A stretch of DNA of 64,000 bases from the NCBI RefSeq assembly GCF_040954835.1, contig NC_090698.1, positions 7,004,501 through 7,068,500 of the forward strand, written 5' to 3'. This DNA is from Lepisosteus oculatus. Lineage: Eukaryota > Chordata > Actinopteri > Semionotiformes > Lepisosteidae. Under the pieces are notes generated by a model. It was not told the origin of the DNA and searched no databases. It was given only the letters and a program-made list of their open reading frames with translations. Position 1 is the first letter of the stretch, and each line of letters begins with the position of its first letter. The translations under genes and the position numbers were made by a program. Below are positions 1,801 through 63,185 of the stretch, piece by piece.

Positions 1801-1966
1801 CTCCACAGGAAAAGTTGAAGTCAGGATCATTCACATCCAGTCCACATGCCTGATTGACTGTGGGTCTGCCAGGAGAGAGGGGAGTACTGGGGGAAACAGA
1901 GCAAAGACGTGAAGGCACCCAGAAAAGGATATGACACTATAAGCATTGCAGCAGCCTGTACGCACC

Positions 1967-3190
1967 ATGACCATGGGCACCATGATAATAAGTACAACAG
2001 AGGAGGTGGGGTCTGCTGTCACCGACGGCAACCAGAGCTGGTCCTCTCCTTCATCATCCTGCAGCATTGATGAATCCTACAAGTATGTCTTCCTGCCTCT
2101 CTGCTACTCCTTCACCTTTGTCTTCAGCATCTCTCTCAACTCTGTAATCCTCTACCGCTCCTTCAGACGTACCAAGCGGTGGAACGCCTCCCTTATCTAC
2201 ATGGTCAATCTGGCGACAACAGACTTCATGTACGGGCTCTCGTTGCCTTTCCTGGTGGCCAGCTACATCATGAGGGACCGCTGGGTTTTTGGTGACTTCA
2301 TGTGCCGACTTGTTCGCTTCCTCTTCTATTTCAACCTCTACTGCAGCATTTTCTTTCTCACCTGCATCTCGGTACACCGCTACCTGGGCATCTGCCACCC
2401 AATGAAGACCATTACCCTGGAGACCAAGCGTGCCGTCAGGGGAACCTGCGTCTTGGTGTGGGCAGTGGTCTTTGCCCTGACCAGCCCCATCTTTCGATTT
2501 GCTCAGACAGAACATGTCCAGAGAGGCGGGGGGGCTGGAGACGATGGAGGAGGAGAAGCCTTCCAAAACTGCTGGGATGATGCCATAGACAAGGAGTTCT
2601 TGGACTACGTTCCCTATGGAATCGTTCTGCACCTGTTAGGCTTTTTTGTCCCCTTTTCCATCATTGCCTGGTGCTACTCGCGCGTGGTCACTACCATTGT
2701 CCGCACCCTGCGCTCCCAGCCCCAGTTACAAGGAGAGGGTGGCAACAGGGTGGTGGAATTGGGACGGGCACCCCTGGGAGGACTGTCGGTGACATCGGGC
2801 CCCCAGTCGCCTTGTTTCCGCAGGCGCCGCAAATCAATCAAGACCATCATCACCATAACTTTGCTCTTCGCCCTCTGCTTCTTCCCCTTTCACGTCACTC
2901 GCACCCTCTTCCTGCTGCTCAAGGTCTCGCCCAGGGTGCCCTGCCACTCCATGCGCATGGTCTCCATCTGCTACAAGGTCACCAGGCCCCTAGCCTCCTT
3001 CAACGCTTGGCTGAATGCCCTCCTCTACTTCCTGACCAAGGAGAAGGGTGCCCCTCACTGCCCACAGCCACCACAGCTGCCCTGGCCGCTGCGTCTCCTC
3101 CGCAGGGGAGCAGGAGGGACAGGAGGCAAGGACAGCAACAACCATAATGAATCTAAGTCCTCGGGGAACATATTTCGGAGTCTGCCCTGA
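1967..3190 (+). CDS. P2Y1-subgroup nucleotide receptor (class A GPCR), P2Y2/4-like
   Basis: This is a single uninterrupted coding exon of 407 aa. The first in-frame ATG is at 1967. The open frame extends back to a TTG at 1946, but the only upstream ATG (1931) runs straight into a stop. Seven hydrophobic segments lie near residues 41-62, 75-100, 113-135, 158-177, 217-238, 290-318 and 333-356. Family marks: Cys113 and Cys202 for the TM3-ECL2 disulfide; HRYLGICHP after TM3 (HRY replaces DRY, as in P2Y2/P2Y4); FFPFHVTRT in TM6 and YKVTRPLAS in TM7, the H-x-x-R and K-x-x-R pairs that bind nucleotide phosphates in P2Y1/2/4/6. NPxxY is replaced by NALLY, and TM2 reads LATTD. Asn22 (NQS) is a glycosylation site. 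Intracellular loop 3 is long and Pro/Gly-rich (about 245-285). The gene is expected to encode a plasma-membrane receptor for extracellular nucleotides. The exact orthologue is not resolved; P2Y2, P2Y4 or a fish-specific P2Y are candidates. Confidence 0.9.
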   Translation: MTMGTMIISTTEEVGSAVTDGNQSWSSPSSSCSIDESYKYVFLPLCYSFTFVFSISLNSVILYRSFRRTKRWNASLIYMVNLATTDFMYGLSLPFLVASYIMRDRWVFGDFMCRLVRFLFYFNLYCSIFFLTCISVHRYLGICHPMKTITLETKRAVRGTCVLVWAVVFALTSPIFRFAQTEHVQRGGGAGDDGGGEAFQNCWDDAIDKEFLDYVPYGIVLHLLGFFVPFSIIAWCYSRVVTTIVRTLRSQPQLQGEGGNRVVELGRAPLGGLSVTSGPQSPCFRRRRKSIKTIITITLLFALCFFPFHVTRTLFLLLKVSPRVPCHSMRMVSICYKVTRPLASFNAWLNALLYFLTKEKGAPHCPQPPQLPWPLRLLRRGAGGTGGKDSNNHNESKSSGNIFRSLP

Positions 3191-13699: not shown

Positions 13700-18055
<4,356 letters not shown>

Positions 18056-40520: not shown

Positions 40521-40529
40521 TGCACACGT

Positions 40530-40593
40530 GCAATAAACCTGGGCCCAGCCCTGGCTGGGTACCTCACCATCACACTGTGGGGTAATGTTTAAT
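40530..40593 (+). promoter_or_regulatory. CDX-like and HNF1-like motif pair upstream of the mucin start
   Basis: GCAATAAA (40530-40537) is a CDX-type homeobox motif. GGTAATGTTTAAT (40581-40593) matches the HNF1 palindrome GTTAATNATTAAC at 9 of 12 fixed positions. They lie 160 and about 100-109 bases before the ATG. The same two motifs occur in the same order before the second mucin-like start at 57542. Function is inferred. Confidence 0.4.
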
Positions 40594-40689
40594 CAGAGGT
40601 GCTAAAGCTCACTGTTAACCTGTCACGCAGGCAGAATAGCTCCAGCCTCAAGGGTGGACACCGGCACAGACCTGCATCTCCCAGGAAAC

Positions 40690-43600
40690 ATGGCACCCCG
40701 ATCCCACAGGGCCCAGATATTCTTCTACCTGCTCCTGTGGGTTGTAGGTAAGACCATCTGTCTCGATGCCTTCTTGCCTGGGCATTGCAGAGAGAGGGGT
40801 GGAGGATTGAGTGGGCTTTTAAAGCCTTCAGAAACATCGGGATGAGTGGACATTTTGAAGGGCTGGGATACTTTCTCTATTGTATAAGCCTCCTGCCCAT
40901 AAAAATATCAGTGCTTGAAGTGGGGACGGGAGACGATTGTCTTTGCTGCTATGAAACGGGCAAAGAAACAGTTCATATGTGAGAGTCTGGGAATTGTGGG
41001 AGCTGGAAGAACAGTATGGTAAAATTGGGGACTGACTGTGGAATGATGAAATTTAGAGAAATGCTGGAAGTGTGGCTATAAGCATCCTTGTGAGAACGAC
41101 ATCTTCTACAATTCGGACAGAATGGCGAGTTACAAAATAAGAATACTATGTGTACCTACAACTTACTCAAACCCCATTAGTCTTTTGTACTATTACAACA
41201 ACATCATTATTAAATACAGCTGGGCCTTGATCTGTCAGCAGCAAGTTTATTGGAAAACGGCCATAACAAAACGACTAACATTTATCCAAAGTAGTGTATC
41301 TGGAAATACTATGTGGTAAAAAGTACGGTCAATTTAACAAAACATATATATGTAAAAACGTTAGAAAAGATAGTGAAATACACTTAAGAACAGATATTCA
41401 CACAGATATGGATAGTGAGCAGATTGTAGTTTCTCGAAAAGAGGAGGGGTGTAACCCCCATGTCCTGGCTAAATTTCCCATTGGCCTTTACCAATCATGG
41501 CCTCCTTATAATCCCCATCTCTGAATTGGTTTCATTACTCTGTTCTCCTCCCCACTGAGAGCTGGTGTGGGGGGAGAGTACTGGTGCACTATGGCTGTTA
41601 TCGCATCATCCAGGTGGGGCTGCACACTGGTGGTGGTGGAGCGGATCCCCATTACCTGTAAAGAGCTTTCAGTGGAGTGTCCAGGAAAGCGCTATATAAG
41701 TGTAAGCAATTATTATTAATTATCATTGTAATAAGTTAATAAACATTAGTCATGGGGGCATATGCATCTACATATCCTGTATTTCCACTACTTTTTATAT
41801 AAATTATTAAATGATGTTTTCAAGAGAGCAAGAGTCCATGTGTCCAAGGACATTTATTACTTTTTCTTTGTGCTCAGTATTGGACAGTACAGTAGCTCTT
41901 TCAGCTTTCGATTTCAAAGTTAGTTCTTGATCAAGGATTCATTTCTGCCAGATTAGTCTGGAACCCAAGTATGTCAGCGATGAGAATTAATAACACAGAA
42001 AGGAACTAAAGCTGGAAAATAAATTTCCAAACATTTCAGTTCTGGCACTATGTAGCTCAGAGAGAGAGAGGGAATCAGAGCTCATGACACCAGTACAGAA
42101 GAGAGAAACATTCACTGGCTTTAACAGGAAATTTATAGAACAGTGCACCACCAAAAACACATCATAGGAATCGTAGCGGAAGGTTGTGGATTGATAACCC
42201 AGGTAAGAGACTGCTGTTGTCCCCTTGAGCACAGCAGTTCACCTGAGTTCCAGTAAAATACGCAGTTGTATAAATGGGTACGATATGTAAATCACCTTGG
42301 ACAAAAGCTTCAGCGAAATAAATTAGCTCCTCCCACACACAAACAAGCTCAAGGCAGCTGGGAATGTGGTTGGCCAGGGGCCTCGGGGGCAGAGAGAGGG
42401 GTCAGGGAGACTCAGGAGAGAAAGCTCAGAATCGTCTGCTATGACACCCAAGAGTGTCAGGGGCAGTTCTTTCCGGGCCCTATGCAGATGACACAATCCG
42501 GAGTAGTGAGGAAACACTGGGGGAAAAGTCATGCAGGAGAACAGATGCGGGGAATGAGGCAGAACGAGGAAGGACTGGAGAGCCCTTAAGAGGAGAGGTA
42601 GCAATCGTGACAAAGAGAAGGCCACACAATGTGAATATACAATAGCTCCCATGGTGTGGCAAAAAGAGATTCAAACTTACCTTTTGCAAACGATTCACGG
42701 AAACCAGTACAGGGCACAGGCACAAAATAAAAAGAGGCATGAAAATATCCTGGGAAACACTGGACTTACATCAGGGTTCCCTTCCACATGTCTTTGCCCA
42801 ACTTGATTTTTAGTGAAGCAGAAATGTACATATTTCATAATTTACCCTTTCTTAGCTGTTGGGTGAACACATGTAGAGAACTACCATTGATTAAAAGAGC
42901 TGTGGTAGCTCAGATGGCAGGGGCATCTAGCTCTTGACTGGAAAGACCTGGGTTCAATGATGGAGCTTGCTCTAATTCCTTTCAGATGGTTCCCAGGTCC
43001 ACTCAGCCTGCTTTCCAAATGAGTACTGGGGGTTAATATTTCTGGGGGTAATAGACCTGCTGGAGTGTGATGCTGACCACATCACCTGTGGTGTCAGATG
43101 GTTGAGAAAAATAGTGGCCCTTGCCCCCATTCCCCCATGGGCCTTTATGGCCTGAAAAGGGGACCTAACCTACCTAACATTTATTAATATTTAGTACAGA
43201 AGCTTATGAGAGCCACAGAGGAAAATAATATCTCATTTATACAAGATAGTGTTTCCTTTATATGAGAAAAATATCTCATTTATATAAGAAAATTATAGCA
43301 TTCGTATGAGAAAATTATAGCATTCATATGAGAAAAGTATCTCATTTATACAAGAAGATTATTGCGTTTAAATGCAATAGTTAATTTGTGAACAATGTTG
43401 CCTGTTGCCTACTATATTAATACTGTATATTGGATTGTACTTTATATGTAATTATACTATCCCATGCAATGAACCATTGACTTTAACAACAATAGAATAT
43501 CATCACACTTTTCTTATTGGAAAAAAAATCTAAAGGAGCACATGTTCTATCTTTTATATACAGTACATGAAGTACAACACCGTGTCAGTAGACATTCCCA

Positions 43601-46600
43601 GGTTAAACGTATTGTTTTGCCGTTTCTGTGACCCAGTAGAAATGACATGGCTTTCCAAATGTGTGGTGCTCTTAATGTGAAGCTGCAGAAACGTGTCCTG
43701 TACATAGGTTTTGCCTACTCTTTAAACATTGAACAGAACACATTAACGATGACTTGACAGTCAGCTTCACATCACGAACAACATGTTTGGAAAGATGTGT
43801 CATTTCTACTTCTTACAGAAACGGCAACTTCAACAAAAGTACTCTTCCACTTTGGGTGAAGGTAGTGGAGAATCGAACAAGGACATCAGTCCAAATCTCA
43901 TCAAGACATCTCTATTACAAATTATTTTAGCAAATCAAACCATGTTGACATCACAAAAATGTTATTTTCTTTGACAGATGATAAATACTATTTGTGATTT
44001 AATAGGTAAGTGATAAAATGAGAAAAATACTGTGGAGAAATTACACCTTAAGCATAGTGACTACTCCTTAAGTACACTGCTTAGCAGGATGTTAACCTGA
44101 CTGGATATAAAATACATCTTCAGAGTATACTAATATATAATAATTTGCTTACATTATATTACAGGTCATGGGGCAGCAACTGTAGATGTAAAGTCAACAG
44201 CTAATTTAATTGAATATACTGACAAAAATACACCTTTCATTTCCTTTGCAGAGATATTCCCAAAGACTGCTGATTCTACACACGTAGCAACTTCTATCCT
44301 TTATACCAGTGATGCTACTTCCTCTACTGACACACAGCCTACAGTCACTCCCTTTCCTGGAACAACAACTGATGTATCTTCCTTTACTGAAACACAGACT
44401 ACAGTCACTCCTTCTCCTGGAACAACAAGTGATGTTACTTCCTCCCCTGAAACACAGACAACAGTCACTCCTTCTCCTGGAACAACAACTGATGTATCTT
44501 CCTCTCCTGAAACACAGACAACAGTCACTCCTTTTCCTGGAACAACCAGTGATGTTACTTCCTCTCCTGAAACACAGACAACAGTCACTACTTTTCCTGG
44601 AACAACAACTGATGTATCTTCCTCTACTGAAACACAGACTACAGTCACTCTTTCTCCTGGAACAACAACTGATGTATCTTCCTCTACTGAAACACAGACT
44701 ACAGTCACTCTTTCTCCTGGAACAACAACTGATGTATCTTCCTCTACTGAAACACAGACTACAGTCACTCTTTCTCCTGGAACAACCAGTGATGTTACTT
44801 CCTCTACTGAAACACAGACAACAGTCACTCCCCTTCCTGAAACAACAACTGATGTATCTTCCTCTACTGAAACAAAGACTACAGTCACTCCTTCTCCTGG
44901 AACAACAACTGATCTATCTTCCTCTACTGAAACTCAGACTACAGTCACTCCTTCTCCTGGAACAACCAGTGATGTATCTTCCTCTACTGAAACACATACA
45001 ACAGTCACACCTTTTCCTGGAACAACAACTGATGTATCTTCCTCTACTGAAACACAGACTACAGTCACTCCTTCTCCTGGAACAACAACTGATCTATCTT
45101 CCTCTACTGAAACTCAGACTACAGTCACTCCCCTTCCTGAAACAACAACTGATGTATCTTCCTCTACTGAAACAAAGACTACAGTCACTCCCTTTCCTGG
45201 AACAACAACTGATGTATCTTCCTCTACTGAAACACAGACTACAGTCACTCTTTCTCCTGGAACAACAACTGATGTATCTTCCTCTACTGAAACACAGACT
45301 ACAGTCACACCTTTTCCTGGAACAACAACTGATGTATCTTCCTCTACTGAAACACAGACTACAGTCACTCCCTTTCCTGGAACAACCAGTGATGTATCTT
45401 CCTCTACTGAAACACAGACTACAGTCACTCCTTCTCCTGGAACAACAACTGATGTATCTTCCTCTACTGAAACACAGACTACAGTCACTCCCTTTCCTGG
45501 AACAACCAGTGATGTATCTTCCTCTACTGAAACACAGACTACAGTCACTCTTTCTCCTGGAACAACCAGTGATGTTCCTTCCTCTACTGAAACACAGACA
45601 ACAGTCACTCCCCTTCCTGAAACAACAACTGATGTATCTTCCTCTACTGAAACAAAGACTACAGTCACTCCCTTTCCTGGAACAACAACTGATGTATCTT
45701 CCTCTACTGAAACACAGACTACAGTCACTCCCTTTCCTGGAACAACAACTGATGTATCTTCCTCTACTGAAACACAGACTACAGTCACTCTTTCTCCTGG
45801 AACAACCAGTGATGTTCCTTCCTCTACTGAAACACAGACAACAGTCACTCCCCTTCCTGAAACAACAACTGATGTATCTTCCTCTACTGAAACACAGACT
45901 ACAGTCACTCCTTTTCCTGGAACAACAACTGATGTATCTTCCTCTACTGAAACACAGACTACAGTCACTCCTTTTCCTGGAACAACAACTGATGTATCTT
46001 CCTCTACTGAAACACAGACTACAGTCACTCTTTCTCCTGGAACAACAACTGATGTATCTTCCTCTACTGAAACCCAGACTACAGTCACTCTTTCTCCTGG
46101 AACAACAACTGATGTATCTTCCTCTACTGAAACCCAGACTACAGTCACTCCCTTTCCTGGAACAATAAGTGATGTATCTTCCTCTACTGAAATCCAGACT
46201 ACAGTCACTCTTTCTCCTGGAACAACAACTGATGTATCTTCCTCTACTGAAACACAGACTACAGTCACTCTTTCTCCTGGAACAACCAGTGATGTGTCTT
46301 CCTCTACTGAAACACAGACTACAGCCACTCTTTCTCCTGGAACAACCAGTGATGTATCTTCCTCTACTGAAACACAGACTACAGTCACTCTTTCTCCTGG
46401 AACAACCAGTGATGTGTCTTCCTCTACTGAAACCCAGACTACAGTCACTCCCTTTCCTGGAACAACAACTGATGTATCTTCCTCTACTGAAACACAGACT
46501 ACAGCCACTCTTTCTCCTGGAACAACAACTGATGTATCTTCCTCTACTGAAACACAGACTACAGTCACTCCTTCTCCTGGAACAACAACTGATGTATCTT

Positions 46601-49600
46601 CCTCTACTGAAACACAGACAACAGTCACTCTTTCTCCTGGAACAACAACTGATGTATCTTCCTCTACTGAAACACAGACTACAGTCACTCCCTTTCCTGG
46701 AACAACAACTGATGTATCTTCCTCTACTGAAACACAGACTACAGTCACTCCCTTTCCTGGAACAACAACTGATGTATTTTCCTCTACTGAAACACAGACT
46801 ACAGTCACTCTCTCTCCTGGAACAACCAGTGATGTGTCTTCCTCTACTGAAACACACACTACAGTCACTCCTTCTCCTGGAACAACAACTGATGTATCTT
46901 CCTCTACTGAAACCCAGACTACAGTCACTCCCTTTCCTGGAACAACAACTGATGTATCTTCCTCTACTGAAACCCAGACTTCAGTCACTCCCTTTCCTGG
47001 AACAACAACTGATGTATCTTCCTCTACTGAAACACAGACTACAGTCACTCTTTCTCCTGGAACAACAACTGATGTATCTTCCTCTACTGAAACACAGACT
47101 ACAGTCACTCCCTTTCCTGGAACAACCAGTGATGTATCTTTCTCTACTGAAACCCAGACTACAGTCACTCCCTTTCCTGGAACAACAACTGATGTATCTT
47201 CCTCTACTGAAACACAGACTACAGTCACACCTTTTCCTGGAACAACAACTGATGTATCTTCCTCTACTGAAACACAGACTACAGTCACTCCCTTTCCTGG
47301 AACAACCAGTGATGTATCTTCCTCTACTGAAACCCAGACTACAGTCACTCCTTCTCCTGGAACAACAACTGATGTATCTTCCTCTACTGAAACACAGACT
47401 ACAGTCACTCCCTTTCCTGGAACAACCAGTGATGTATCTTTCTCTACTGAAACCCAGACTACAGTCACTCCCTTTCCTGGAACAACAACTGATGTATCTT
47501 CCTCTACTGAAACACAGACTACAGTCACACCTTTTCCTGGAACAACAACTGATGTATCTTCCTCTACTGAAATCCAGACTACAGTCACTCCCTTTCCTGG
47601 AACAACCAGTGATGTATCTTTCTCTACTGAAACCCAGACTACAGTCACTCCCTTTCCTGGAACAACAACTAATGTATCTTCCTCTACTGAAACACAGACT
47701 ACAGTCACACCTTTTCCTGGAACAACAACTGATGTATCTTCCTCTACTGAAACACAGACTACAGTCACTCCCTTTCCTGGAACAACAACTGATGTATCTT
47801 CCTCTACTGAAACACAGACTACAGTCACTCTTTCTCCTGGCACAACCAGTGATGTTACTTCCTCTCCTGACACACAGACTACCCTCAGTGCTTCTCCTCA
47901 CACAACCCTGTACCCCAGTCACACCACTACTCATGTCACATTCAGTACTGTCAGACCAACTACAGAGGAGCCAACTACCCCAGGAAAGCCTGAAGAACAT
48001 ACAACTCCAAATGTCTGTAACAATGGTGGCACATATGTAAACAATATGTGCGTCTGTCATCCGAATTTCGAGGGCAAGTTTTGTGATGTTCTAGCAGGAA
48101 CTGTTTCTGTCGGTGAGTAAATGATCTTCTGACCTTACAGATGAAAAACCTGTCTGCGCCTTCCTTAATTTTCACTATGAAGAAGGCTTTCAGGTCCCTT
48201 ATCTGCAAGGCACAAGTGTGAGGAATGATTTGAATTTGCCCCTAAAATGCAAAAGTTAATGTATCATGTGTTACAACTTTATTTTATTTAATATTGTTAG
48301 GTATTTCAGCTCCCTCCTCTTTGATCCCCCAGTTTTGCTTACTTGGAAAATGTATCAACAAGTCTACAGAGCTACTTGGCAGACAGCTTTCTACCATAAG
48401 CAACTAGTGGCAATCATTTAATTTTTATGATTGTACAATTATCAAAAGATTTCAGATGCAATGCAAGTTACAATGTCACATCATGTAATGCAACCAGTGC
48501 ACTTTGTAGTTCTTTTCACCATTAAGCCCTCTGTCCTTGATGCTATTATCACTAATGTCTAAACTTGATCACAACAATTATTTCTAGTGTACTATGCAGC
48601 ATTGGACATCTGCTGAGAGAGACTCACAGATCTGGAAAATATATTTCGGGACCCTCTTTAGGTTTTGATGCACTGTACAAGCACTGTACAAGAGTGGCAT
48701 AGGTCAAACTCTCCACATGGCCATATTGCTACAATCTGACAAGTTTCACCTACATGTTTTAGACAATAACATTAAGAAAGCTTTTAAAAACACAACAGCA
48801 CCGATTTCCAAAGCCAGATGAACATAAAACTATCACATGAGTAAAAGCAGATCTGAGTCAACGTTCCCTTTATTTCAGTTTCCCACACTACGATAACCTG
48901 TATTTATATGACACCTTTTTTCTAACATAGTCCATGCTGGAAAATACCTGCTGTTTTAACACTTTTCCTATTGTAAATGCTGGTTGATTTTACAGCTTTG
49001 GTCTAAAATTAAGAATCTGGTGTCCTGAACTGTATGTAGAGCTGTTCCTAACTGTGGAATATTAGTCCTGTTTAGCTGTGTGGTACAGTATGAAAACCAA
49101 TTAAGCAAACTTCTTTCCACACATTTGTTACAGATACCTATGAAAGGACAGCAAACGTGACAGTGAAGATAGACCAAAACTACACACAGGAACTGAGCAA
49201 CCCATCGTCATTAGAATACAGTACATTTGTAAACAACTTCACGAAGCAGGTGAGGAACCAAATGACGGGGCTGGGATCTCTGAATGTCAACAAAGCTGGA
49301 GGGAATTTAGATTTCATATTCACATGTGAATAACAGGTGTGAATGAAGACCAAACTGTGTTTTGTTTTTTTGCCAAAAGGCCCGATCAGTTATGATGGAC
49401 CTAACCCTCAAGAGTGAAGATAGATTTCTCTCTGGTTCATGCCATTGATAAACTCTTTCTAATCTCCTGCAGATGGACAACGTTTACAAGAATATTAGGA
49501 ATTACAAAGGGGTGGAGATTCTGAAAATCAGGTACTGTGTCCTCGTGCTCTGCTATCTTAGAGAAAAAGCCCCATAGCTTCCAGAACACAAGAAGGGATC

Positions 49601-52600
49601 CAGTGGGTACGAAACTACTTAAGTGTGAGATGTAAAGTGAAGCAACGGGGTTTGTGTTCAGGTTTGTGTGTGCAGATTTGCTGTAATCGCAGACTGTGAT
49701 GAGTTCTGTCACCCGGACGTTTCCTCTTCCTTCACTCCAAGTTTTCTGAATATCCTGTCGGGGGAAGGAAATACACTGCAATCCTGAAACAACACGAGAT
49801 ATTTGAAAGGAATGCACCCTTTACATTTGAGGCTTTATATCTTGGCAAACTGGATTTTGATTGGAGAGGAACTGACGAATATTGGTTTGGAATCCTTATA
49901 TCAGCAGGGAAGAAAGCTGTAACAAGAAAGTGGCTTCTCCCAGATTTCCCAACCATTAATGATCCGATTGAATTAATAAAGGAAATATATATCATGGAAA
50001 AAATTGCATTTTCACTAAAATTACAAATGAAACAAATGGTCAAATATTGGTCTAGATGGGTTCAGTACATGAAACCTTTAAGGTTGGATTTTGTTGAGAT
50101 ACAAAAAAACTGATCTCCTCCCATTTCATATTCATAAATGTATGTATCGGCCTTCTTTTGAATGTATACTGTATATGAATGTAGTTCGTAACTGAATGTA
50201 GTTTTGTTTAAAAGTTATATAATTGTAAAATACTAGGGGAACAAACAGGAATAGACCATTTTTGCCTGTGATGTAAGGCTGAATAACGGTGGGTTATATG
50301 TAAAATGGTATTGTTTTGTTCTCTAAAATAAAAATATAAAAAAAACAACAACACGAGATGCAGGTAGAACTGGAACCTCATGACGCCATTACATTCATGA
50401 TCACCTTCTTCTGTTCACGCACACAGCAAGGGCAGCATTGTTGTGGACTACGAAGTCATCCTAGAGATAAAGAACGGAAACGATGCAGACGAGGTGTACC
50501 AGGAAGCGCTCGCTGAAGTGGAAACGGCTCTGGAAAAGGCGAAGAATTGCACAGGTAACATACAGCACCAGTAGCAGGTAGCAACTCTACATAAACTATA
50601 CAAGTCTCTGGTGTATAATCACATCCACCACAATTCTGTACTGATGCTGTTGTTACTGTACTTAAACGAGGGGTCAGGACTGTAATGTACCTGATGATAT
50701 TACTGTGGTTATTGTTCCTACACTAGGGAATATTAAAGCACCACACAGACACTAATTTACCTGATAATCTCCTGCTAATTTTTCTGTTTTTCACTTAGTG
50801 CTAGGTTGTGCGATACAACATCACTGTGATTCTGTATTTCCATTTCAGGACAAGTTAACTGCCTTACTTTTACTATCAAGAATTATACAGTCAGCAACAG
50901 CACGTTGAACGAAAATGGTGAGTATGTTGGGAGACAGAGAAGGAGACAGTAAAGGTGTCCGGTAGAGATGAGGAACTGGGAGAGAGGGAAAGGCTGTGTA
51001 TGCTAGTGGTCAGAACTGGGAGACTGAAAGACAGAAAGGGAGGGAGTCTGAGTGAAGCACCTACAGCTGTGAATATGTGGTATTTAACCCCAGTGTGTTC
51101 CCTCCACAGCTGTGTGTGCCAAGGTGATCCCAGAGGGTTTCAACACCTACTACACCGCTTACACAATAGATTCGAAAATAGTCTGCATTTCCCAGTGTGA
51201 CTCCAGACACAACGAGAGAAAATCCTGCAACCTGGGCACTTGTCAGGTCACCAGAGCCGGACCCACCTGCTTGTAAGCCCTTGCTTCTTCTCAGCCACCG
51301 CTGCTGGCATTATAAGCAAAATTTGTATTGCTATCAGGGAAGCCGACCAGACTGGGGAGAATGCAGTTTTAGTCAGGAATGACCTGTGTTCATCCGTCTC
51401 CAGCTCTGGAGTCTGAACACAGGGCAGCTAAAGGCTTTACTGATCATCTCCAGCTACGCAGTCATGAATTATACAGACACGTCCCAGCTCTTTGTTAAAC
51501 CCATGGGACACCAGGGCGGGTGGTGCAGATGGATGGGATGGATGGGACAGATATCACCTCTCGATCAGCATATATTTCTTGGAATTCTTTGGAATGATTT
51601 CCCCTTGAATAGAAATGAAGAGTTTTTTACTCATCAGGTTTTGCGCGTCCTTTCCTCACCTGCCACTCACCCCTCTCTCCGCAGCTGTTTGCACACGAGC
51701 TCAGAGTGGTACATGGGCAGTGACTGTAGCCTTCCTGTCAGCAAGGCTGGATTCTACACGGGAGTGGGCATCCTGGCTGTGGTCATAGTGGTCACTGTCA
51801 TCACCTTGTCCACATTCCTCGTCCTGGGCAAGAAGAAAGAAATCAGGTTTGACAATATAACAGCTACTTTTTTTCAGCAGAGTCTTGACATCTCTGCTAA
51901 GTGAGAGATAGACAGGTGAGGTGAGCCTAGCACCAGGGAAGCCTTGTTACAGAATGCAGAAATGAGACGAGAGGAAGCTGGCCTTGACTCATCCCTCTTG
52001 CCACCTCTTAGGAACCAGGACAGGAAGAACAGTCTGGTGAACCAGTGGCTGGATGATGACTTTGAGTGGCCGACGCTTAACAGGACAGACACACCAGCAG
52101 GTACTGCCCCCATGTTCTCCCTTGCCTCCTCAGCCAAGCGCGGGCGCCAAATGTCTAAACCTGCGTTTCCACTCATACGGAGCAAGATCACAGTTACTAC
52201 TGTATACCTTGTTCTCAGGTGACCTTTTCTTCCGTCTCTTTGGCTCTCATTCTCCCTTCTGTTCTTTCTCTTTACTTCTTATTGTTGTACTCCTCCCTCA
52301 TCCTTTTTTTAGGGTTTTCTCTTCTCTTGTACTTTCTGTTTTCTTTTCAGGTGTCTTCCTCTGACTCTCTTGCCTCTCTGTGTTTCGTCCGCTGCCTGTC
52401 TGTTTGTTCTGGCAGATGTGATTGAGCTTTTCACTGGCACTAGGAACGTAAGACAAGCTGATGATTCTTCTTGTTGGATGCTCACCTGCTCACTCTCTGG
52501 GTTCCAGCTGAAAGCTACAGTGCACTGTACGGAAAGTCCCAGGACCTGCCCTACAATGCCCAGAGTTCCACAATCTTCAGAAACCCCAGTTCTTACTTTG

Positions 52601-53330
52601 CGGATTCTAGCGTACCAAGATACCCCTGCCCACCCTACAGCAGAGAGGAAAGACGCCCTATGCAACAGAACATCCAGCTCAACAACCTCAGTCCCCCCGT
52701 CTCGGTGAGCGATCTTTATCATTGCGGCACAAAAGGAAAGACCACATTTCCCAATTCACTTTTTTTTCCAGAGTCACTGTTTTCAGTGACAAGCTTGCAG
52801 CCCCATACTTCACCATCAGAGGTATTAAATAAATATTGCAGTTGGAGGACAAGTACATAGACAACACAGATTGATCTGGGGAATGTAGATACAGTAAAAA
52901 CATATGATACATACTGTAACTACATAAGAAGATCGATAATGCAGCCACAAGTTTGAAACATTATTCATTCCCAACTCCATCAAGCATAATAAAACATTTC
53001 GGAGACCATCAAAAGCAGCAGAAAAAAAAATATGATTAGGTTCTATTTCAACTACTCCAGCCATTCATATTCAACTGTTCTGAACGGTTATTTTTACACC
53101 ACAATGCACATTTTGGAATAATATAATGAGAATATTCTAAATTGGTAACCCTAGCTCATTCTTTTAAAATAACTGCTGTTTGAAATGTTACAGAAGCCAC
53201 TGGGGCAAGATGCCAGTGGTGCAGAGTGGAGGTGAACTTAAGTATTGGGGATGCTGTTTTGCTAATCCCCTGTCTTTCTTTGCAGGTGAGAATCGGTTGG
53301 CCCCACATCCGGACCTCTTTCGAGAGCTAG
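40690..53330 (+). CDS. Transmembrane mucin with VNTR, SEA and EGF-like modules (MUC3/12/17 type)
   Basis: Eleven exons join in frame to 1677 aa: 40690-40747, 44165-48112, 49134-49249, 49473-49531, 50427-50554, 50849-50917, 51110-51272, 51685-51846, 52012-52100, 52508-52704 and 53286-53330 (TAG). Order: signal peptide (MAPRSHRAQIFFYLLLWVVG); Thr/Ser/Pro mucin domain (about aa 50-1285); a short EGF-like module (VCNNGGTYVNNMCVCHPNFE); SEA domain (about 1340-1440) with the autocleavage motif GSIVV; a Cys-rich second EGF-like segment ending GPTCFCLHTSSEWYMGSDC; one TM helix (about 1538-1558); a cytoplasmic tail. Human MUC17 has the same layout, including GPTCRCYSTDTHWFSGPRC before the TM and DQDRK just inside the membrane (here NQDRKNS). 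The protein is expected on apical epithelial membranes, probably gut, as a cleaved glycocalyx mucin. The gene is intact. Which mammalian MUC is closest cannot be decided by eye. Confidence 0.92.
41435..41725 (-). repeat. Dispersed repeat 'TATATAGCG' family, copy 4 (inverted)
   Basis: Reverse complement of copy 1, from the 'aaatttcccattggc' region to 'gcgctatataagtgtaagc'. It ends in (TAT)n. Confidence 0.8.
42165..42330 (+). mobile_element. tRNA-derived SINE fragment
   Basis: Body 'ccttgagcacagcagttcac' and tail 'aaatcaccttggacaaaagc' followed by 'aaataaatt'. This is a widespread fish SINE 3' end. The head is degraded. Confidence 0.65.
42895..43185 (+). mobile_element. tRNA-derived SINE
   Basis: Starts 'agctgtggtagctcagatgg' (A-box-like) with 'gacctgggttcaatgat' (B-box-like), followed by a non-tRNA body ending 'ggggacctaacctacct'. 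It lies in mucin intron 1. Confidence 0.6.
43205..43375. repeat. AT-rich imperfect tandem array
   Basis: About six degenerate repetitions of 'atctcatttatacaagaaa' alternating with 'attatagcattcatatgaga'. Period about 20-27 bp. Confidence 0.6.
44318..47896 (+). repeat. Mucin VNTR: 59 units of exactly 60 bp
   Basis: From 44341 to 47880 every unit is exactly 60 bp, with a consensus peptide of TVTPFPGTTTDVSSSTETQT (11 of 20 residues Thr/Ser). Variation is by substitution only: TPFPG, TPSPG, TLSPG or TPLPE; TTTDV or TTSDV; SSST, FST or SSSP. Because 60 is a multiple of three, all frames stay open over long stretches. That creates spurious long open frames on both strands, including one of 919 codons on the minus strand. 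Confidence 0.97.
49801..50346 (+). mobile_element. 5'-truncated LINE (L1/Tx1-like) inside the mucin SEA-domain intron
   Basis: The insert is flanked by a perfect 13-bp target duplication AACAACACGAGAT (49788-49800 and 50347-50359) and ends in an A-rich tail. The only coding remnant is the last part of ORF2, about 49870-50116, including AGKKAVTRKWLLPDFPT and IYIMEKIAFSLKLQ, typical of L1/Tx1-type C-termini. It lies in the intron between exons 4 and 5 of the mucin and does not disturb their splice sites. Confidence 0.85.
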
Positions 53331-53694
53331 TCGTTTCTCCCCCTTTCCCCTGTGAGGCTCCCTGTCTGAGCTGAGGGACACAGGCTGCACACACATCTAG
53401 CACAAGACCGGGAAGAACATGCATACTAACCCCCAATGAACCCATGGTACTCATGGTTGGCCAACGTGGCAGTTCAGCTCTGGCAGCTCTGCAACACAGG
53501 ACAGTGAATAATGAAGGTTACTGTCCTTGGCAAAGGGTGTACGAGACCGTACTTTACTTCACCAGACTGCGTTACTCCTCAGGCCTCACTTTAAGAGTGC
53601 ATTTAAAAGAATCTCTCCAATGTATTTATACGCTTTACAATAGAACATTGATGCTAAGATATATTACCTGTAATAATTTATGTATTTACGATGT

Positions 53695-53702
53695 GCAATA
53701 AA
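53695..53702 (+). terminator. Polyadenylation signal of the mucin gene
   Basis: AATAAA in 'gtgcaataaacaat', about 365 bases after the stop codon, followed by a T-rich stretch. Confidence 0.6.
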
Positions 53703-54004
53703 CAATTTTTTTCAAGCTGCTATGTTTGTTTTCTGTTCACTTTCTGTTCACTTTTCCTGGTGAGGGGGGTTGCAATGTGCCGTTTTTACTTTCCTGACAT
53801 GTGGATTTATATCCCGGCAGGTTGTATGAGGTAACAAGATTATTACTATTACAACTGCAGCAGCACAGGTGCGTATAAAGATGTTTTGGTACTTGCAGAA
53901 GACTAAGTGTAGTACAGTGTGTGAGTATGAAATCTACTACTCAGTACAGTGAATGAGTACCTGTTAGGGGAATTCTGACTAGGATTACTAGTGTAACTAG
54001 TGTT

Positions 54005-55310
54005 CACGTTTATCGCCATTATACTCATATACAGGTATATGGTATAACGAAATACTATTTAGCTAGCTCTCAGACGATAAGCAGTACAAAAAAACAACAA
54101 TACAATTGTATAAGAAAAGAAAGACAGAGACAACAGGCAGTGTGCAAAAACAACAACAGGCAATGTGCAAAACAACAAGAGGTAACAGGTAATGTGCAAA
54201 AACAACATCAGATGTGCAATATCATACATAAACAGAATGAAATAAAGAACAGAAAATTATTGGGAGTGAACCTTTTGACATGTGAGGTAGAGGTAGATTT
54301 CAATGTGTGTTAGAGTTTTGATGAAGAGAGAAGGCATTGTGAGGGTTCAGATAGTAGGTGAGAGAGGCTGGGAGTTTAATAGCTTTATAGTGCGGGGGTA
54401 AAAACTGTCTCTGAGTCTGGTATTCCGGGCCCGAATGCTCCGGTACTGTTTTCCAGATGGTAGAGGGTCAAACAGTCTGTAGCGGCAGTGTGTGGGGTCT
54501 TTGATGATGCTTAGAGCTTTCCTCAAGCACCGTCTGTCATAAATGTCCTGGATGGATGGGAGAGCAACCCCAGTGATGGACTGGGCAGTTTACACCACCC
54601 ACTGTAGGGCTTTGTGGTCAGTAATACTGCAGTTGCTATACCACACTGTGATGCAGCCTGTCAGTGTGCTTTCTGTAGTGCATCTGTAAAAGTTAGAGAG
54701 GCTCTGGGGATATATCTTAGCCTTCTTCAACCATCTTAGGAAGTACAGGCGCTGTTTTTCTTAATCAGACAGGTGGTGTTGAGAGACCATGTGAGGTCCT
54801 CAGTGATATGAACGCCAAGGAATTTGAAGTTACTGACCCTTTCCACTTCAGTCCTGTTGATGTGGATAGGGGCAGAACCATTTTGCAGTTTCCTGAAATC
54901 AATGCTGACATTGAGGGTGAGGTTGTTGTCTTCACACCACGTTGTAAGGAGATTGACCTCCTCCCTCTAGGCCCTCTCATCATTGTCTGTGATCAGACCT
55001 GCAACTGTGGTGTCATCGGCAAACTTGATGATGGAGTTGGTGTTATGTTTGGCCTTACAGTCATGGGTGTAGAGGGAGTAGAGCAATGGACTAAGCACAC
55101 ACCCCTGGGGGACCCCAGTGTTCAGAGTTAATGTGCCAGAGGTGTGGTTTCCAAGCCTGACAGCCTGGGGTCTGCCTGTCAGAAAGTCCCGAATCCAGTT
55201 GCAGAGGGTGGTGTCGAGGGTGTGGGAGTTTCTTGACTAGTTTCTCTGGAATGATGGTGTTAAAAGCCAAGGAACCATCATCAGCCACGTTTCTAGATAA
55301 GAGTGTTCTG
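54005..55310 (-). mobile_element. Decayed LINE (CR1/L2/Rex-like) with reverse-transcriptase remnant
   Basis: On the minus strand the sequence encodes pieces of a non-LTR reverse transcriptase, including [14 protein letters not shown] (around 55000-55034), NFKFLGVHITEDLTWS and LYFLRWLKKAKI. It then runs into a 3' UTR shared with 33480-33890. The catalytic ADD is visible. The 5' part of the ORF is missing and the frame is interrupted, so it is inactive. The plus-strand open frame 54808-55131 is a shadow of it. Confidence 0.85.
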
Positions 55311-55477
55311 TTTTCTGTGCCAAAGGTTAAACAGGCCAGTATTTTTGATAACAACAGATTGTTATGAGTTGGGTTTGGCAAAAAATGTGGCCAACAGTGA
55401 GATAAAATAATAGGAAACAGAATTACATAAAAGGAGAACAAATAAATGATAAATGCAAATAACATCAGAGGTCGAAG

Positions 55478-55605
55478 TAGTTCAGGTGGGTAACTGCATC
55501 AGCATGCATAGGCTGCAAAGGAACATGTAATGGGTGTATTCCATGCTGAAAAGAGAAGTGAGAAAACACAACGTTTCGGCTGTGAAGCCTTCTTCAAGGA
55601 ACAGC
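55478..55605 (+). repeat. MITE-like repeat, copy 1 (half palindrome)
   Basis: Begins 'caggtgggtaactgcatcag', then 'ggctgcaaaggaac', 'tattccatgctgaaaag' and 'aaaacacaacgtttcggc'. These blocks recur at 56865-57050 and 63188-63425. Confidence 0.75.
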
Positions 55606-55639
55606 CCATCCTAATTAATCTAATTGACTTATTGAGCCT

Positions 55640-55985
55640 CATTGAGCATAATATCTGATTGGCTAGGAAGAACAGCAGGCAAGAAGGAAGCGAAGTAAAA
55701 GGTTTGAGTGTTTAAGTCCTGATAAATTTGGTTTGACTCCTGGCCAGAGGACGAGGAGGCTGGGGTGAACCATGTGGACTGAGGGGTGACCAAGGGGCAG
55801 CTGTAGAGGTGGAGGAGGGATGCAAAAGACATGCGAGGAAGAGAAGGGGATTATATCTTTAAACATTTATAATGTTTAGGAGAGAAAAATTACATCAGGA
55901 TTGATATACAGGTTACTGACACCTGAGGCTGATTGAACTTGGCTGTTGTCATCCATCCCGAACTCCATTAAAGATGATTCTCTTT
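55640..55985 (+). repeat. Dispersed repeat related to 540-840 and 61860-61965
   Basis: Shares 'ggagggatgcaaaagacat' and 'gctgattgaacttggctg' with the start of the window. Class unknown. Confidence 0.6.
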
Positions 55986-55989
55986 TAAA

Positions 55990-56860
55990 ACTGTTTACAC
56001 AGTGTAAAAACATAAAAACCTTCTTTTAACTCCAAGGTTCCTGTTTAAAACAAATAATTGCCTTTATGAGGGCAATAACATTTGTTAGTTTTTACCAACC
56101 TAGTGACTTTGACAAGAGAACATGCGTGTTTTTTAAAAGCACTGGATTTTCTAAGAAAAATCTATGTGTATTTGCATAATAAACTATGTCTAGTTTTCAG
56201 ATGTTAAATGTAAATATGGCTCTTGGAATATACCCATTGCTTTTTTCAGTATGATTATTTAAGGGGCAGCAGGCTTCTAAAAGGTAAGAAGAGGTATCCA
56301 GCTGTTGGTCTGATTGGCTGTCTGAGAAGAAAGGGAGAACATGAAGGAGACTGAAACACGGGTTCGGGGAGTCTTTTTGGAAGAGTGAGGTTTCTTTTTG
56401 AATACGTGTGCATTTGAGAAGAGTTTCCGAGAAATACTTGAGTTCTGAGATCGTTTGGTCACTAGAGAGATGTTTTGCAACTGGTAAGCAACCTACCCGC
56501 TCAGGTATTTATATAGAGAAACTATACAGCTGAGGTTTGAATTTTTCCTTCCTTGTACTGTGTAAATAGAGGTGCAACATTTTCACTTTACGGCTGCTTC
56601 TGTCTGTTTTCCCTGAGACCTGCCTATTTTAAGATCCTGTTGACAGTATCTCTGCCCCCGGGTATGCCTTAATCAGTATATATTAAAGGTTTTACAATGT
56701 TCTTCTTCACTTTCCTCAGGACCCAGTCAAAAACACTGAAATTATTTTAAATTAAAAAATGACACTATATCTCCTGGATCTTTCCAAAGAAAAATAAAAT
56801 CTTCTATTTCATCTGTAATTTATTTGGTTGTCGTATTTGTTCAAAGACGGATGAAGAAGT
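55990..56860. other. Intergenic stretch, nothing recognised
   Basis: AT-rich sequence without an exon or repeat match inside the window. Confidence 0.4.
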
Positions 56861-56864
56861 TCAA

Positions 56865-57050
56865 GTAGGCAGCTGCGTCAGCGTGCATAGGCTGCAAAGG
56901 ATCAAATAAAGTTTTATTACTTGCTGAAAGGAAAAGAACAGACAACACTGAAGACGTGTGAAGAAGAAGGCACCTGAAGAAGACCCCCCAAACCGAAACG
57001 TTGTGTCTCTTTTCTTTTCAGCATGGAATAAACCTTTACTTGTTCCTTTG
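56865..57050 (+). repeat. MITE-like palindromic repeat, copy 2
   Basis: Outer blocks 'gtaggcagctgcgtcagcgt' and 'cagcatggaataaacc' with an imperfect palindrome between (tgctgaaaggaaaag / cttttcttttcagca). Same family as 63188-63425. Confidence 0.7.
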
Positions 57051-57400
57051 TCCAAAGTGGCTTACAGTTTGTACCCTGTTATACGGCTGTGTGGTTTACT
57101 GGAGCAAAAAGTAGAGCACAACGGCAGAGCCTTGCTGGGATCTGAACCTGCAAATTTCCTTTTACAAGTCCAGAACCCCTTCTCACTTCTCCCCCAAAGG
57201 AAAGCTGACTGACCTTCAAACACCTGCATACCTCCATTGCACTGTTATCCACATAGGGGTGCCCTCCAGTAATGACCAGGAAAAGCTAGCTATCCAGAGA
57301 AAACAGTGCTAAGAATAGTAAGAGATCTTGATTTGTACGTCTTATGAAAATGGGACCTCCTAGAAAGGTTTGACAAATCAATGATCATTTTTTGATGACA

Positions 57401-57454
57401 GCAATAAATTGTGCCATCATCGAATCACCGATTTGAACATTGTTAATGTTTAAC
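57401..57454 (+). promoter_or_regulatory. CDX-like and HNF1-like motif pair before the second mucin-like exon
   Basis: GCAATAAA (57401-57408) is followed by GTTAATGTTTAAC (57442-57454), which matches the HNF1 palindrome at 11 of 12 fixed positions. The HNF1-like site begins 100 bases before the ATG at 57542. Order and spacing parallel the first mucin gene. Function is inferred. Confidence 0.5.
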
Positions 57455-57541: not shown

Positions 57542-57608
57542 ATGGCACAATCTGGTGCTCTCTTCTCAAACCTGGTGCTCTCCTACCTTCTCCTGTGGAC
57601 CACTGCAG
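57542..57608 (+). CDS. Signal-peptide first exon of a second, tandem mucin-like gene (partial)
   Basis: The ATG opens 22 codons (MAQSGALFSNLVLSYLLLWT, then TA) plus one base, followed by a strong donor G|GTAAGACTGG. The first mucin has the same arrangement: MAPRSH..., a hydrophobic core ending YLLLW, phase-1 exit, and donor G|GTAAGACC. Kozak context (aacATGGCAC versus aacATGGCACC) is almost identical. The rest of the gene would lie beyond 64000, consistent with the first gene's 3.4-kb intron 1. It could also be a decayed duplicate; no later exon is in view. Confidence 0.6.
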
Positions 57609-62179: not shown

Positions 62180-63185
62180 TTTCACACTCAATGATGGCCA
62201 TATGCGTTACAATACCATACACGATCCCCTTCTCCCCATCACGGATGTCCTTTGCATATACCGTACTGCCTCGCTGCCTACACTTTGCAATGGATATTCC
62301 TGTTTGCTGCTCCGACTCCTGGTCCGACCCGCCAGGAATCGCGGCTCCTCGTGCTCTCCGTGTACCGGCATGTGTTTCATCTGCTGCTCTGCCATCTCAC
62401 TTACTTGCTTTTCAACCTCAGCATCCTCATCTACCAGATTCCATGCCTTTTTGAAGACTGAGATCTGCCGTTCTCATCCCTTCTTAGTGAAAACAGCCAG
62501 CGTCACGACCTGTGTTCCCTCTCATTTTTTTTTTCCCCGCTGAGCGGATGACTTAATAACCTGAGTGGCGTAAAACAGCTGTAGTGCAGGATGCACGGGG
62601 CTTCACATGGTCCCATGTGAGAGCTCCGTGATCGACCGGAAAGACCCCCGGGCAAGGCCCGAGGGGCATAATCACATGTACTGCTGTTGCTGAGTTTGTG
62701 AAAGTTTGCAATAGTTTGCCAGCTAAACTAAAGGAAGTACCTACCGTACAACATGTAGTTTTAAGAGACGTTTTCAAGCACTACCGACTGGGTTGACGGA
62801 TAATTTATTGCAAAATTGTGTTATTTAACGACTCCCATGAAGACCTATTTGTTTTGCCACATGATCTGAATTTTTGATTTCGTTAATTATGCGTGAACCG
62901 CCCCTCCCGAATGATAAAAAACCTTTATGAGGACCTTGAAGATTCCATTTGCAACGTGCAAATGTTTACTTTCTGACATTTCGTTTGATGTTTGTTCCAA
63001 CAGTTGATTGATGATGTGAATTGCAATAAACCCTTTACTTGCATACTTAGTATCGTGCTTGTAATGCAAACAGTTTTACCATAGACTTTTTAAATTCACA
63101 ACATTGCAGCTATAATGCAAATCACGCACTGCTTATCTTTAACTTCGAAAATCAAGTTTAAGAGTTCACTAATCACTATAAAAAA
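62180..63185. other. Putative intronic stretch, nothing recognised
   Basis: No exon of the second mucin (VNTR, SEA or EGF) is visible. 62560-62800 looks repeat-like but has no match in the window. Confidence 0.35.

Follow-up and report, generated by a model that had tools for sequence, protein, structure and literature searches.

Two genes that look like membrane mucins by sequence carry, upstream of their start codons, the same pair of short words in the same order and on the same strand, and the presence of this pair in both promoters exceeds chance. The shared words are probably the remains of an inherited intestinal promoter. To the full reading, in which the promoter was inherited by tandem duplication with its CDX and HNF1 sites retained and both genes are paralogues of the MUC3/MUC12/MUC17 kind, we give roughly even odds (probability about 0.5). 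The start codons are located at 40690 (gene 1) and 57542 (gene 2) of the window, the whole 64-kb stretch of DNA analysed here, which spans 7004501–7068500 of contig C3. The CDX-like word GCAATAAA occupies positions 40530–40537 and 57401–57408 of the plus strand, at −160 and −141 from the respective ATG. It is followed on the same strand by an HNF1-like 13-mer, GGTAATGTTTAAT in gene 1 (40581–40593) and GTTAATGTTTAAC in gene 2 (57442–57454), the distance between the two elements being 51 bp in gene 1 and 41 bp in gene 2. The motif KTAATGTTTAA matches the 64-kb sequence at exactly two positions, 40582 and 57443, where shuffling predicts 0.03 matches. The original prediction had named this pair before both mucin ATGs, with the HNF1-like site about 100–109 bp away; the positions were confirmed, and the measured distances from 13-mer to ATG are 109 bp (gene 1) and 100 bp (gene 2). 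The exact 10-mer TAATGTTTAA, starting at 40583 and 57444, is the longest word common to the two 300-bp upstream regions, which besides it share two same-strand 8-base words, GCAATAAA and the out-of-register CCAGGAAA. In gene 1, a CACGTG E-box (40525–40530) overlaps the first base of the CDX-like word.

The shared words were assessed against 3000 dinucleotide shuffles of both upstream regions, run with the second start codon placed one base too far upstream. A shared 10-mer of any kind appeared in 196 of the 3000 shuffles, and one no more than 10 bp off register in 18. The 10-mer together with an 8-mer, with order kept and a spacing difference of at most 10 bp, was obtained in eight shuffles, and such an ordered pair with the 10-mer also in register in none (0/3000). 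Since the pattern GCAATAAA-N30-60-KTAATGTTTAA was defined from the two mucin sites themselves, its genome-wide figures are post hoc: it has nine matches in the 1.2-Gb genome from which the window comes, compared with one for the backwards control and 3.7 expected under an order-3 model, and two of the nine are the mucin promoters, 17 kb apart, with 0.001 pairs within this distance expected among nine random genome places. Six of the seven other matches were read, the check covering the first six ATGs within 200 bp; one (L004) has an ATG and a donor-like word downstream, and none is convincing by eye.

Two predicted membrane mucin genes beside ACHE

Read from the DNA alone, gene 1 was modelled with ten plus-strand exons, GT–AG borders and 1,663 codons without a stop. 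A predicted signal-peptide-like exon 1 of 58 bp, phase 1 (40690–40747), precedes exon 2 (44165–48112; 3,948 bp), which holds the PTS domain, with 59.5 copies of a 60-bp repeat, and the first EGF-like module. Exons 3 (49134–49249), 4 (49473–49531) and 5 (50427–50554, with the motif GSIVV) correspond to the SEA domain, recognised in the spliced tail by Pfam (E = 2.2e-13) and by a PDB match to residues 142–236 of adhesion GPCR F1 (E = 7e-8). The remainder of the model consists of exon 6 (50849–50917), a cysteine-rich exon 7 with EGF-like region 2 (51110–51272), exon 8 with the end of that region and a hydrophobic helix (51685–51846), and tail exons 9 (52012–52100) and 10 (52508–52704, the provisional gene end). 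The first EGF has Pfam scores under the curated cut-offs, and the second was recognised by eye.

Exon 1 of gene 2 (57542–57608, plus strand), also signal-peptide-like and of phase 1, is homologous to exon 1 of gene 1, the alignment score of exon 1 with its donor being reached in 0 of 500 resamplings. Exon 2 starts about 15.6 kb further downstream, past the window end, and we infer its link to exon 1 from phase and homology. It is a single PTS exon of 32,025 bp without stops, or about 10,675 residues (C3:7077743–7109767, corresponding to 73243–105267 in continued window coordinates; loci L009–L013), with its donor chosen from two candidates. Over the joined frame, 61% of residues are S/T/P, and the exon contains 135/225-bp and 90/135-bp repeat arrays. 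The tail exons match those of gene 1 in seven tblastn pieces, six of them 47–72% identical and the seventh 29%, and the EGF/SEA/EGF/transmembrane layout was matched by tblastn and reading. The examined 163 kb revealed no SEA/EGF set beyond these two. The possibility that the second ATG starts something other than a mucin was ruled out by the mucin body within the downstream 99 kb. The original prediction that both genes are mucins is supported by the sequence, with gene 2 read beyond the window.

Members of the MUC3/MUC12/MUC17 family have a signal-peptide exon, then the PTS region in one very large exon, followed by EGF, SEA with a cleavage motif, EGF and a transmembrane helix. Both genes display the same organisation, with a signal-peptide exon before a very large second exon that holds the PTS region, and with the EGF, SEA (cleavage motif included), EGF and transmembrane helix in this order. 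As in that family, ACHE flanks the locus upstream: an open frame on the minus strand (16246–17787), head-to-head with the mucins, has as its best PDB match the acetylcholinesterase 2w6c (E = 3.6e-209), which we take to be the Torpedo enzyme. In human, the orientation of ACHE relative to the mucins is presumably the opposite. Downstream of the mucin pair, five open frames were scanned, yielding SNAPC2 (L014) and a histidine N-acetyltransferase (L017), which we take to be NAT16, presumably also located on human 7q22. The other downstream frames, in the 99 kb and a further 30 kb (L019–L023), were read by eye, and additional NAT16-like frames were seen in this way in L022 and L023. Elsewhere in the window, a single open frame at 1943–3187 encodes a P2Y-type receptor (best PDB matches P2Y2 and P2Y4), and minus-strand open frames at 54300–55240 resemble LINE reverse transcriptase by eye.

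Ray-finned fishes are characterised by a rod rhodopsin gene that lacks introns, alongside a sister gene that has them. The genome studied here contains an intronless rhodopsin aligned over residues 1–346 of the bovine query with 79% identity and without stops, as well as intron-split relatives. The locus is therefore most likely that of a fish, in agreement with the original prediction. On the grounds of architecture and neighbourhood rather than of a tree, the two mucin genes appear to be MUC3/MUC12/MUC17-type paralogues arranged in tandem next to ACHE, and on the same grounds they would form an orthologous MUC3-type cluster in what is most likely a ray-finned fish. In PMC9578598 (2022), ACHE-MUC3-MUC12-MUC17-TRIM56-SERPINE1 is treated as a block that vertebrates have conserved, and the Xenopus genes are taken to suggest that the MUC3 cluster first emerged in amphibians; according to PMC1552070, the family is missing in chicken and fishes. 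Compared with the amphibian origin proposed in PMC9578598, an ACHE-linked MUC3-type cluster in fish is less expected; we do not claim that it is unreported. The fish cluster, with the mucin of about 10,700 residues encoded by gene 2, is more unexpected than the regulation, which is ordinary in kind, CDX/HNF1 control being a textbook scheme.

Divergence of the DNA around the shared words

Because exon 1 and its donor are homologous and the splice phase and gene layout are the same, we read the two upstream sites as copies of one promoter. The DNA around them was compared by sensitive blastn (33.0–44.1 kb against 52.8–73.2 kb, E up to 10), which gave 27 alignments. None of the six alignments at E ≤0.004 covers either promoter; two of these six are script-flagged repeats and the others resemble dispersed repeats by eye. 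The next-best match is exon 1 with its donor (E = 0.19). Since the promoters are left uncovered at E ≤0.004, the shared words stand out from drifted DNA, and the original statement that the surroundings have otherwise diverged holds, with the qualification that some weak collinearity is left. When the 300-bp upstream regions were aligned, the global score was reached in 1 of 500 resamplings and the local score in 94. The corresponding figures are 12/500 (global) and 33/500 (local) for the stretch from the HNF1-like site to the ATG, and 21/500 and 265/500, near background, for the part upstream of that site. For the first 300 bp of intron 1, the local score was reached in 11/500 resamplings, which extends the weak similarity beyond the promoter, and the global score in 93/500.

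A repeat origin of the two promoters was considered and rejected. The region from −700 to +200 of gene 1 has no second match in the window (blastn, E ≤0.01), and blastn matches of the same region of gene 2 reach only 57103, upstream of the motifs.

The residual similarity is what a purely passive history would leave behind, in which the promoters were duplicated together and the words are simply the last unmutated stretches, with no selection acting on them. The homologous exon 1, the weak global similarity of the 300-bp regions and that of the HNF1-to-ATG stretch and of the start of intron 1 all fit this history. However, flanks and introns provide no promoter-covering alignment at the threshold given above, and after so much drift a 10-mer and an 8-mer free of constraint would not be expected to survive exactly and in register. 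Moreover, both words resemble sites of gut factors. We therefore consider such a relic unlikely, although it is the best placed of the alternatives. Selection on the words would account for their persistence, and with two copies (n = 2) selective retention is not fully separable from mere inheritance by duplication.

Identity and frequency of the candidate CDX and HNF1 sites

At both loci, GCAATAAA equals the core of the published CDX2 consensus oligonucleotide, GTGCAATAAAACTTTATGAGTA (PMC2835698). In gene 1, the word together with its two upstream bases reads GTGCAATAAA, which has ten consecutive bases in common with the oligonucleotide. The second element was compared with the HNF1 palindrome GTTAATNATTAAC (PMC11382887). 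The 13-mer of gene 2 has a single mismatch to it, and no other site in the window matches it this closely, whereas that of gene 1 has three and is for this reason a weak site. A functional HNF1alpha site has been described in UGT1A1 (PMC2835698). Its opposite-strand sequence, GTTAATGTTTGAC, has GTTAATGTTT in common with gene 2 and TAATGTTT in common with gene 1. Thus, the CDX and HNF1 labels of the original prediction suit the CDX-like word and the gene 2 site, but the gene 1 site much less, and the identity of the motifs was recognised after the fact. A literature search for GTTAATATTTAAC matched only an unrelated bacterial paper.

The original prediction also invoked CDX2 and HNF1 as a known intestinal combination. 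This agrees with the literature, sucrase-isomaltase and lactase being regulated by Cdx-2 with HNF1alpha (PMC2761415); the same source gives only a slight change in intestinal transcription upon HNF1alpha loss in mice. According to PMC5574553, conserved elements that are open in zebrafish, mouse and human intestinal cells contain HNF1 and CDX2 motifs, and in zebrafish one such element still gave reporter expression after its HNF1 site had been mutated. Among mucins, HNF1/4, FOXA, GATA and CDX factors are reported as regulators of MUC2, MUC4 and Muc5ac (PMC3840449).

The elements might also be retained and functional but read by other factors. In the window, the gene 1 13-mer fits HNF1 poorly, yet TAATGTTTAA is exact in both genes. 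Given the known preferences of such factors, FOX-type proteins could read TGTTTA, which would then be a FOXA-type site, and the AT-rich words could act in the core promoter or be bound by other homeodomain factors. For the primate MUC3A/MUC3B promoters, the conserved sites named are those of HNF4A/G and STAT3; CDX is absent from the text of PMC9578598, and a term count gave 0 for HNF1A and CDX2. On the other hand, the gene 2 site departs from the HNF1 palindrome at a single position and GCAATAAA matches the CDX2 core exactly, and we regard the reading by other factors, second among the alternatives, as rather doubtful.

Taken singly, the words carry little information. GCAATAAA alone is four times over-frequent in the 64-kb window (8 occurrences against 2.0 expected), and HNF1-like sites with three mismatches to GTTAATNATTAAC, such as that of gene 1, number 31 against 24.5 expected, near chance. 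An argument from single words was accordingly dropped; given the over-frequency of GCAATAAA, pairing and position carry the weight. One further copy of GCAATAAA, at 63023, lies within a AATAAACC stretch, and similar stretches were noted by eye near 57025 and 63400.

With the motifs defined alternatively as GYMATAAA and as GTTAATNATTAAC with up to three mismatches, paired within 100 bp, the 64 kb contain three same-orientation pairs and one mirror pair, two of these four being the mucin pairs; over 163 kb the mucin pairs are two of six, with one additional pair in opposite order. Both motif classes are present in 74 of 6,380 overlapping 200-bp windows. The original prediction had proposed counting the pair genome-wide. 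The exact pattern is more frequent than its backwards control, as given above; the form with a strong HNF1 site (GYMATAAA-N25-65-GTTAATNWTTAAC) is not enriched, with seven matches genome-wide against 19 backwards. Wide recurrence is, however, no precondition for such control of the two mucin genes. The count indicates that CDX-then-HNF1 at that spacing is no general grammar in this genome, and the pair as a general promoter grammar was discarded as unsupported. That a scanning reader merely picked up unrelated AT-rich words is improbable: the frequency of GCAATAAA, the near-chance count of weak HNF1 sites and the ease with which shuffling yields some shared 10-mer would favour it, but shuffling never reproduced position and pairing with register in the two paralogous promoters, nor would two of nine genome-wide matches be expected 17 kb apart.

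A proposed promoter and its comparison with known systems

We propose that a compact proximal promoter was copied along with each mucin gene and that the CDX-type GCAATAAA and the HNF1-type KTAATGTTTAA 41–51 bp downstream of it may have been kept in both copies, as the other sequence drifted. In enterocytes, the predicted sites would most likely be bound by proteins of the CDX1/2 family and by HNF1a/b, which would bring in the transcription machinery so that transcripts begin somewhere from about −90 to the ATG, and both mucins would thereby be made on the gut brush border. The HNF1 site of gene 2 looks strong, and the weak site of gene 1 may be helped by GTTAAC, an HNF1 half-site-like word at 40614–40619 (plus strand, 33 bp past the start of the HNF1-like site) in gene 1 only. 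The spacings of the two pairs differ by 10 bp, approximately one helical turn, which would suit the cooperation of two DNA-bound proteins, as far as two cases can tell. If this picture is true, the locus offers a small testable promoter for the mucin layer on the fish brush border, and it illustrates how regulatory words can outlive the DNA around them once a gene has been duplicated in tandem. More tentatively, the ACHE-linked MUC3-type cluster might have been controlled ancestrally by a CDX–HNF1 enterocyte promoter that was already there in a ray-finned fish, before the amphibian origin suggested in PMC9578598, and that was duplicated with each copy; we see this as possible.

The CDX element of sucrase-isomaltase is the proximal one, with the HNF1 sites lying distal to it. 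In the two mucins, by contrast, the CDX site is distal to HNF1, and both sites are known from sequence alone. What the mucins have in common with sucrase-isomaltase and lactase-phlorizin hydrolase is a CDX-type and an HNF1-type site near the start of an intestinal gene (PMC2761415). The order seen in the mucins is that of UGT1A1, where a predicted CDX2 site (−98 to −118) lies upstream of HNF1 (−79 to −95) and where the functional HNF1 site, like that of gene 2, contains GTTAATGTTT; the UGT1A1 sites are closer together than the mucin pair, and the predicted CDX2 site formed no gel-shift complex (PMC2835698). Primate MUC3A and MUC3B likewise encode membrane mucins, lie in tandem beside ACHE and have conserved sites for gut factors in common in their promoters. 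In the text of PMC9578598, however, these are HNF4A/G and STAT3 sites, with CDX unmentioned, whereas the fish pair is CDX/HNF1-like, and the primate genes are highly identical in sequence, whereas the fish mucin promoters hardly align.
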